From assembly GCA_009693005.1 (NCBI GenBank), contig SHYC01000005.1, positions 1-32,896 of the forward strand: a DNA stretch of 32,896 nt, read 5' to 3'. The notes beneath the pieces were generated by a model. That model was not told where the DNA came from and ran no database searches. It saw nothing but the letters and a program-made list of their open reading frames with translations. A program made the position numbers and the translations under genes. Of the stretch, positions 9,026 through 13,831 are shown piece after piece. Each line of letters opens with the position of its first letter. Position 1 is the stretch's first letter. The DNA comes from Dehalococcoidia bacterium (GTDB lineage: Bacteria > Chloroflexota > Dehalococcoidia > SHYD01 > SHYC01).

Positions 9026-9796
9026 GTGAGTATAAAACCAGAAGAATGGCGGAGAGCGTCAAAATCCGGCAAGGTCAGTGTTACGTTGAAGGCAGTTGTC
9101 GTTACACCTACTTACAATGAGGCAGAGAACCTACCTATGATGGTGGATGCTGTAAAGGCTCTCGGTATTGAGGGATTACAGCTATTGGTTGTGGATGATA
9201 ACTCTCCGGATAAGACCGGGGAAATCGCGGACCAGTTGGCCAGGAGGTATCCGGACTTTTTTGCCGGCGTTATTCACCGGCCCCGTAAAATGGGGCTGGG
9301 GACCGCTTATATCGCAGGCTTTAGATATTGTCTAGAGCTTGGCGCGGACTATATTATCCAGATGGATACAGACCTTTCACATCCTCCCGGCACTCTGCCG
9401 GTCTTGCTGGAGATGATTAAAGAGTACGATGTGGTCGCAGGTTCCAGGTATATAAAGGGCGGGAGACTGGGAGATACTTGGGGACTGGGGCGCCGACTGT
9501 TAAGCGCTGGCGGCAATCTGTATGCCAGGCTCTTCACTGGCCTTCCCATGAAAGATGTGACGGGAGGGTTCAGATGCTTTCGCCGCGTGGCGTTAGCGAG
9601 CATAGACTTGGAAGCCGTCCGAAGCACCGGCTTCGCGTTTCAGATTGAGATAGCCTACGCCTGCCACAAAAACGGATGTTCTATCAAAGAGGTACCAATA
9701 GTGTTTAACGATAGAGCACACGGGCGATCTAAGATGTCCCTGGATATAGTATGGGAGGCCTTCTGGACGGTCTGGCGGGTGAGGACCAGATACTAA
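9026..9796 (+). CDS. Polyprenyl-phosphate sugar (mannose-like) synthase, DPM1/Ppm1-type GT2
   Basis: VVVTPTYNEAENLPMMVDAVKALGIEGLQLLVVDDNSPDKTGEIADQLA...MGLGTAYIAGFRYCLELGADYIIQMDTDLSHPP...AGSRYIKGG...DVTGGFRCFRRVAL...FAFQIEIAYACHKNGCSIKEVPIVFNDR..GRSKMS; GTG start; no TM domain. Confidence 0.93.
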   Translation: MSIKPEEWRRASKSGKVSVTLKAVVVTPTYNEAENLPMMVDAVKALGIEGLQLLVVDDNSPDKTGEIADQLARRYPDFFAGVIHRPRKMGLGTAYIAGFRYCLELGADYIIQMDTDLSHPPGTLPVLLEMIKEYDVVAGSRYIKGGRLGDTWGLGRRLLSAGGNLYARLFTGLPMKDVTGGFRCFRRVALASIDLEAVRSTGFAFQIEIAYACHKNGCSIKEVPIVFNDRAHGRSKMSLDIVWEAFWTVWRVRTRY

Positions 9797-9820
9797 AGAT
9801 TCCCGGAAGCATCTGATTCA

Positions 9821-12800: not shown

Positions 12801-13831
12801 GCGCGGCCTTCAGCGCCCATGAGAAAATGGAGTATCCGGCGGCGGTAGCGGTTTTAACTACAATGGTCAGGGCTTCAGTGGGCCTTGGGGCCTTGTTCGT
12901 TGGCTGGGGAGTCGTCGGTCTAGGCATTGCCTCGGTTGTGGCAAGCACCGCCTCTTCTATAATGCTTGTAATAGTCTTCGTGAGGATGTTTTCTCTGCCC
13001 AGGTTAGAGTTTGACCTGTTTATGGGAAAGGACATGACGTGGACAGCTCTTCCCCTCATGATAAACAACTTGCTGAGCACTATCTTCTTTCGCATAGATG
13101 TAATGCTCTTACTGCCGATGAAGGGAAGCCAGGTCGTGGGATATTACTCAAGCGCCTATAAATTCGTTGACGGCCTCAATATATTCCCCTCTTTTATTAC
13201 CCTGGCGCTATTCCCCGTGATGTCCAGGCAAGCTCTCTCTTCAAAGGAAGGACTAATAAGAGCTTACACCAAGGCAGTGAAGGTCCTTTTGATACTGGCT
13301 ATTCCCATAACCGTAGGGACCACAATCATAGCTGACGAGCTTATATTTCTCCTGTTTGGCAGTGAGTTCGGACCCGCTGTGCAGGCGCTTCAGATACTGA
13401 TATGGTTCTTGCCTTTCAGCTATGTAAACAGTGTGACGCAATACGTTATTATCGCGGTTGGCAAACAACGATTCCTAACTGTAGCCTTTATCATAGGCGC
13501 CACCTTTAACGTTGCCGCAAACCTGATAGCGATACCTTTCTTTGGACTGTTGGGGGCCGCGGTTGTAACGGTGTTGAGCGAGCTTGTGCTGATGGCGCCT
13601 TTTATGTGGGCCGTCTGGCGCTGGGTAGGGGCGCTGGACTTAGTTGGGCTATCTATTAGACCTGCCGTCGCTACAGGTATTATGGGAGCGGTTTTGGTCC
13701 CACTAAGTCATCTGAGCATATTCTTGCTGGTGCCTATAGGAGCAGCCGTTTACGTCCTCGCGCTCTTGCTGCTCCGTACCTTCGATGATGACGACAAGGC
13801 TATTTTAAGGTCTATCTTCGCCCGCTCTTGA
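9821..13831 (+). CDS. Fusion: YfhO-type GT-C membrane protein (N) + MOP/Wzx-like polysaccharide flippase (C)
   Basis: 1336-aa uninterrupted ORF, TTG start. Residues ~1-850 resemble YfhO ([12 protein letters not shown]...[23 protein letters not shown]...[23 protein letters not shown]...[44 protein letters not shown]). From ~865: [66 protein letters not shown], a typical polysaccharide flippase N-terminus, to 14-TM-like C-terminus. Confidence 0.9.
   Translation: [1336 protein letters not shown]

Follow-up and report, generated by a model that had tools for sequence, protein, structure and literature searches.

Two adjacent genes on a contig of a Dehalococcoidia bacterium probably encode a compact, two-protein system for transmembrane glycosylation, in which a GT2 enzyme would charge a lipid carrier with sugar, a MOP-type flippase domain would flip the charged lipid and a GT-C domain, fused to the flippase in one polypeptide, would transfer the sugar. 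The window, meaning the whole stretch of DNA analysed here, is one 32.9-kb contig from a 1.77-Mb metagenome-assembled genome that is 74% complete. It contains two intact genes on the + strand, a GT2 gene at 9026-9796 followed by an ORF of 1336 codons at 9821-13831, with the features listed here.

9026..9796, + strand: GT2 gene, GTG start, 256 aa, predicted DPM1-like GT-A (family GT2) polyprenyl-phosphate sugar synthase
9365..9373, + strand: DxD motif of the GT2 (D114-T-D116, within MDTDLSHPP), both aspartates invariant in 12 orthologues
9797..9820, + strand: gap of 24 nt between the GT2 and the fusion, from the sequence
GGAAG approximately 10 nt ahead of the TTG start of the fusion, + strand: possible ribosome-binding site, identified by eye
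9821..13831, + strand: fused GT-C/MOP flippase, TTG start, 1336 aa, single frame
9821..12370, + strand: YfhO-type GT-C domain, residues 1-850 (Pfam YfhO, AlphaFold2, Foldseek, hydropathy)
9929..9931, + strand: D37, just after TM1 (LLPxD), present in 35/36 fused domains and 16/25 stand-alone YfhO proteins
10061..10063, + strand: D81, external loop 1, invariant (36/36 fused domains)
11603..12280, + strand: mostly beta-strand region, residues ~595-820 (DSSP on the model), ahead of the last GT-C TM helix
12356..12436, + strand: linker between the domains, Lys/Arg-rich, predicted cytoplasmic
12413..13828, + strand: MOP-superfamily (Wzx-like) flippase domain, residues 865-1336 (Pfam, AlphaFold2, Foldseek)

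The long ORF matches the Pfam families YfhO, Polysacc_synt, Polysacc_synt_3 and MatE, all above their curated cut-offs. The arrangement described in the first-pass annotation, a GT2 gene and then a single ORF with a YfhO-type GT-C domain and a MOP/Wzx flippase, is exact in its coordinates, and Pfam and the predicted folds agree with it. An assembly or frame artefact behind the fusion was ruled out, as the same fusion is found across many independent assemblies. Sequence searches of the PDB with the fusion, and with profiles of both of its halves, returned no solved relative, and the folds were therefore predicted, using AlphaFold2 and alignments of relatives from the contig collection (36 rows for the GT-C half and 50 for the MOP half).

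The GT2 belongs to the Glycos_transf_2 family (PF00535; 5.5e-29), with a score that likewise exceeds the curated cut-off. Its best match in the PDB, and nearest solved relative, is the dolichol-P-mannose synthase of P. furiosus (5mlz; 2.1e-34), along the catalytic part only; past the matched region, 5mlz continues into an additional C-terminal part, whereas the GT2 of the window stops after the catalytic part, and a hydropathy analysis found no clear transmembrane (TM) segment in it. The MDTDLSHPP motif aligns with the DADLQHPP stretch of 5mlz, and orthologues are 49-62% identical. By family, DxD motif and nearest relation to the DPM synthases, the enzyme is, as judged from its sequence, DPM1-like. 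Homologues start approximately 20 residues later than the GTG codon at 9026, and thus this codon may not be the true start.

The N-terminal half of the fusion matches YfhO (PF09586) at 76.6 bits (1.9e-21; cut-off 28.5), and its AlphaFold2 model (residues 1-860) has a mean pLDDT of 90.5 and a pTM of 0.92. When this half was compared to the PDB with Foldseek, all significant matches were GT-C transferases. The best was ArnT with bound undecaprenyl phosphate (5f15; 1.9e-6), and further matches included AftD (6wby), AglB (7e9s) and STT3 (8age), then a C-mannosyltransferase and Pmt4. The TM-scores are modest (0.2-0.5), as expected of a divergent family, and nearly the same list of fold matches has been obtained for the Firmicutes enzymes (PMC8035078). 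A simple hydropathy count predicts 14 TM segments in this half. In GT-C enzymes, the catalytic acid is situated in the first external loop. Both D37 and D81 fall within the predicted first external loop, and their conservation makes them candidate catalytic residues of the GT-C domain; among stand-alone YfhO proteins whose first loop is short, the alignment falls on D37 more often than on D81. The mostly beta-strand region is predicted to be external and is possibly the acceptor-binding part of the domain. A large external loop has been reported at the matching position in YfhO (PMC7389260).

The linker is rich in basic residues across 12 homologues, with 2-5 K/R against 0-2 D/E, and a cytoplasmic linker together with an external beta-strand region fits both this composition and the even number of TM segments. 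The C-terminal half matches Polysacc_synt (PF01943) at 110.8 bits (1e-31; cut-off 28.2), and its model (residues 854-1336) has a mean pLDDT of 91.9 and a pTM of 0.88. Foldseek matches to MurJ (6nc6; 2.6e-10) and WzxE (9g9n; 4.6e-10) span the whole of this half, with TM-scores of about 0.6-0.83. By sequence, the nearest families are the exopolysaccharide (EPS) Wzx proteins, which carry pyrophosphate-linked oligosaccharides. Invariant residues are kept throughout the relatives of the MOP domain. Two of the tests proposed in the first-pass annotation concern these domains: the C-terminal one has the MOP fold, and the N-terminal one matches GT-C enzymes by fold and keeps acidic residues in its predicted first external loop.

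The fusion is present in 14 of 294 sampled genomes of the class, and a profile scan of the genomes of 84,980 species (the GTDB contig collection) returned 74 loci, at least 45 of which encode YfhO and MOP as a single frame. The fusion loci that are named all come from the Chloroflexota, with labels that include Dehalococcoidia, Anaerolineae and Ardenticatenia, in a scan that used MOP peptide patterns and that distant fusions outside the phylum could escape. Judged by frame lengths, long frames that span the two halves are present in approximately 43 of 400 genomes sampled across the phylum, and in about as many genomes the MOP half is represented solely by a stand-alone relative. The fused domains cluster in a tree of MOP domains but do not form one clean clade (5 changes), with one row counted as “alone” (L098) being a truncated fusion. 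Distances of the GT2, YfhO and MOP parts correlate (0.73-0.87), as would also be expected from shared descent alone.

The GT2 gene lies directly upstream of the fusion in all 13 class genomes whose contig allows it, and in 32 of the 37 fusions of the wider set whose contigs hold upstream DNA, the two sets overlapping in some genomes. The two genes overlap or lie within 35 nt at 26 of the 32 paired loci; the five fusions without an adjacent GT2 are L058, L061, L067, L069 and L090. This gene-neighbourhood survey, one of three tests preset by the first-pass annotation, bears out the claim that homologues adjoin a polyprenyl-P sugar synthase. Neighbour clustering recovered the GT2 and the fusion as the only broadly recurring genes, with a response regulator as the next cluster (9/46 loci). 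As a control, 26 stand-alone YfhO loci, mostly from fusion-bearing genomes, were examined, none of which adjoins this GT2 type (>200 bits) or a MOP gene, and approximately six of which adjoin a different, distant GT2 (67-86 bits). A chance neighbourhood of the two genes is ruled out by the pairing counts, the neighbour clustering and this control.

The genome of the window encodes a second YfhO, a stand-alone protein of 995 aa (contig C10; L048:5911-10135), upstream of which lie a 141-aa gene and a different GT2 (226 aa), with no GtrA between. Within the window itself, xylose-isomerase-like TIM-barrel genes flank the cassette on the - strand (4626-5486 and 13894-14757), and a weakly PMT_2-like membrane protein of 517 aa is encoded approximately 6 kb upstream (1609-3162, - strand). 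A single ORF on the + strand (18291-19379) joins ThiD2 to thiamine monophosphate synthase, and two long ORFs on the - strand, of 936 aa (26236-29046) and 392 aa (31703-32881), have no Pfam match.

The 12 best matches to the GT2 profile among the 294 class genomes are the copies that adjoin fusions. Class genomes that lack the fusion can also carry this GT2 type by itself, in some cases near gyrA-like genes, and the product of this GT2 is therefore not exclusive to the fusion. Such lone copies, among housekeeping genes and with no fusion, are found in L202 (5004-5729), L203 (2679-3434) and L208 (2765-3865), where the GT2 is followed by a conserved gene of ~270-280 aa and then by a gyrase-A-like gene. 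Other relatives combine the parts differently. The GT2 directly precedes an unfused MOP gene, without a YfhO domain, at L106:6934-9470 and L227:4950-7539, while at L101:7911-11785, and also in L224, an unfused MOP gene runs directly into a PMT-type GT-C gene (766 aa), the two overlapping by 4 nt. In Chloroheliaceae-type genomes, the GT-C-like N-terminus fused ahead of MOP is much reduced in length, and no GT2 adjoins the gene (L100:6690-9623, L102:6696-9623, L103:765-3587, L116:7191-9890 and L235:5098-7752); such genes may represent a degenerate or minimal version of the fusion. The variant combinations support a functional link between GT2, MOP and GT-C, and show that this link is not fixed.

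In the mechanism favoured here, the cytoplasmic GT2 would, as its family suggests, put one sugar from a nucleotide sugar onto polyprenyl phosphate, with GDP-mannose as a guess at the donor from the nearest solved relative. The C-terminal MOP domain, going by its fold, would turn the polyprenyl-P-sugar to the outer leaflet. The N-terminal GT-C domain, whose fold and conserved external acidic residues point to this role, would then pass the sugar on to an acceptor on the outer side of the membrane, which the external beta-strand region may bind. The predicted topology is compatible with this order of charging, flipping and transfer. The proposal in the first-pass annotation that all three activities could be encoded in two adjacent genes is supported at the level of predicted activities, while a Firmicutes-type envelope polymer is not indicated as the acceptor.

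The affinity of the MOP domain to the EPS Wzx families suggests another role, of the Wzx/Wzy kind, in which this domain would translocate a pyrophosphate-linked oligosaccharide produced elsewhere, for polymerisation or ligation by the GT-C domain, leaving the GT2 to provide a side sugar or to be only loosely linked. In the genome of the window, there are two initiating phosphoglycosyl transferases and four Wzy_C proteins, and no Polysacc_synt protein was found apart from the fusion. However, a genome that is 74% complete could lack an EPS flippase for that reason alone, the cassette is not part of an EPS cluster, no other polymer gene recurs beside it, and its recurring partner is a DPM1-type enzyme. 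In three other fusion genomes (G015, G018 and G027), a further, unfused Polysacc_synt protein is encoded at a distance of 4-10 kb from a Wzy-type polymerase; this protein is therefore probably the polymer-export flippase in those organisms. Additionally, the GT-C fold matches users of polyprenyl-P-sugars (ArnT, PMT) as well as oligosaccharyltransferases, and a Wzx/Wzy-like role is on balance unlikely.

The GT2 and MOP parts might instead keep every GT-C enzyme in the cell supplied with outward-facing polyprenyl-P-sugar, the fused GT-C domain being one user among them. Genomes of the class do encode several further YfhO proteins, mostly without GtrA, and both the lone GT2 copies and the GT2-MOP pairs lacking YfhO would suit such a supply; yet the GT-C domain is intact, with its invariant residues, in nearly all relatives and is shortened only in those of the Chloroheliaceae type, making this explanation quite improbable. 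Less credible still is a MOP domain that acts as an anchor or regulator and not as a working transporter, or that carries another substrate such as lipid II. MurJ ranks first among its Foldseek matches, and no MurJ was found in the genome of the window despite the presence of penicillin-binding-type transpeptidases. Among six fusion genomes tested, though, this is the only one without MurJ; the other five have a clear MurJ alongside the fusion, and its absence here therefore probably reflects missing parts of the assembly. The invariant residues of the MOP domain also speak against this reading.

The charge-flip-transfer system preferred here resembles several characterised ones in its parts, although known systems divide the work among at least three individual proteins. 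In the CsbB-GtcA-YfhO system of Firmicutes, a GT-A enzyme, a flippase and a YfhO-type GT-C provide the three activities (PMC7389260; PMC8035078). The cassette shares these kinds of parts, but its GT-C and flippase form one polypeptide (one frame at no fewer than the 45 loci given above) in place of separate proteins, its flippase is of the MOP and not the GtrA type, and its GT2 has no membrane domain. Compared with what defines multi-component transmembrane glycosylation, it appears, from sequence and models, to hold a GT-A enzyme (by family and adjacency), a flippase of one of the two types found in such systems (Wzx, the other being GtrA) and a GT-C with external acidic residues; it lacks the small GtrA/GtcA-type flippase and the three separate proteins of CsbB-GtcA-YfhO proper. 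In a search that gave positives in 7 control genomes, GtrA/GtcA (PF04138) was absent from the cassette, from the genome of the window and from 10 of the other 14 fusion genomes, with four genomes having both the fusion and GtrA.

The closest system in kind of parts is GacI/GacJ-GacK-GacL of Streptococcus pyogenes, with a GT-A enzyme, a Wzx-type flippase (GacK) and a GT-C (PMC8035078). These are separate proteins, however, and GacL has a PMT-2 domain, not YfhO; clustering of the cassette neighbours gave no recurring small gene that could be a counterpart of the GacJ helper. In Haloferax volcanii, DolP-mannose is likewise made inside by AglD, moved out with AglR, which has been proposed as the DolP-mannose flippase or its helper, and transferred by AglS (PMC3871713), although this system is archaeal, consists of separate proteins and targets the N-linked S-layer glycan. 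The Pgf system of Streptococcus mutans (PgfS, PgfM1, PgfM2; PMC5856776) also pairs a GT2 with large YfhO-like GT-C proteins but modifies surface proteins, with no fused flippase noted; the Pgf NCBIfam matches to the fusion and the GT2 are weak and far below the curated cut-offs. An unrelated, MOP-type flippase in place of GtcA, as described in the first-pass annotation, is therefore not new in itself, given GacK and the proposed role of AglR. The apparently new element is the fusion of GT-C and flippase, of which no description was found in the open-licence papers searched.

In a more speculative form of the proposal, the fusion would act as a flip-and-transfer enzyme. As a single chain carries both flippase and GT-C, the MOP cavity might hand the lipid-linked sugar straight to the GT-C active site, bypassing the outer-leaflet pool, while the soluble GT2 would dock at the cytoplasmic face. 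Such an extension is possible but doubtful; if true, the sugar would be private to one acceptor, and the fusion would represent the first enzyme class to couple lipid flipping and glycosyl transfer in one polypeptide. To our knowledge, the flippase of polyprenyl-P-monosaccharides in bacteria is poorly proven, with a case that is mostly genetic. In a natural MOP/GT-C fusion beside an enzyme that charges the lipid, a single flippase is linked to a single substrate, and the question becomes testable with a reconstituted two-protein system. The cassette also points to a common, uncharacterised route of envelope or protein glycosylation in the Chloroflexota.
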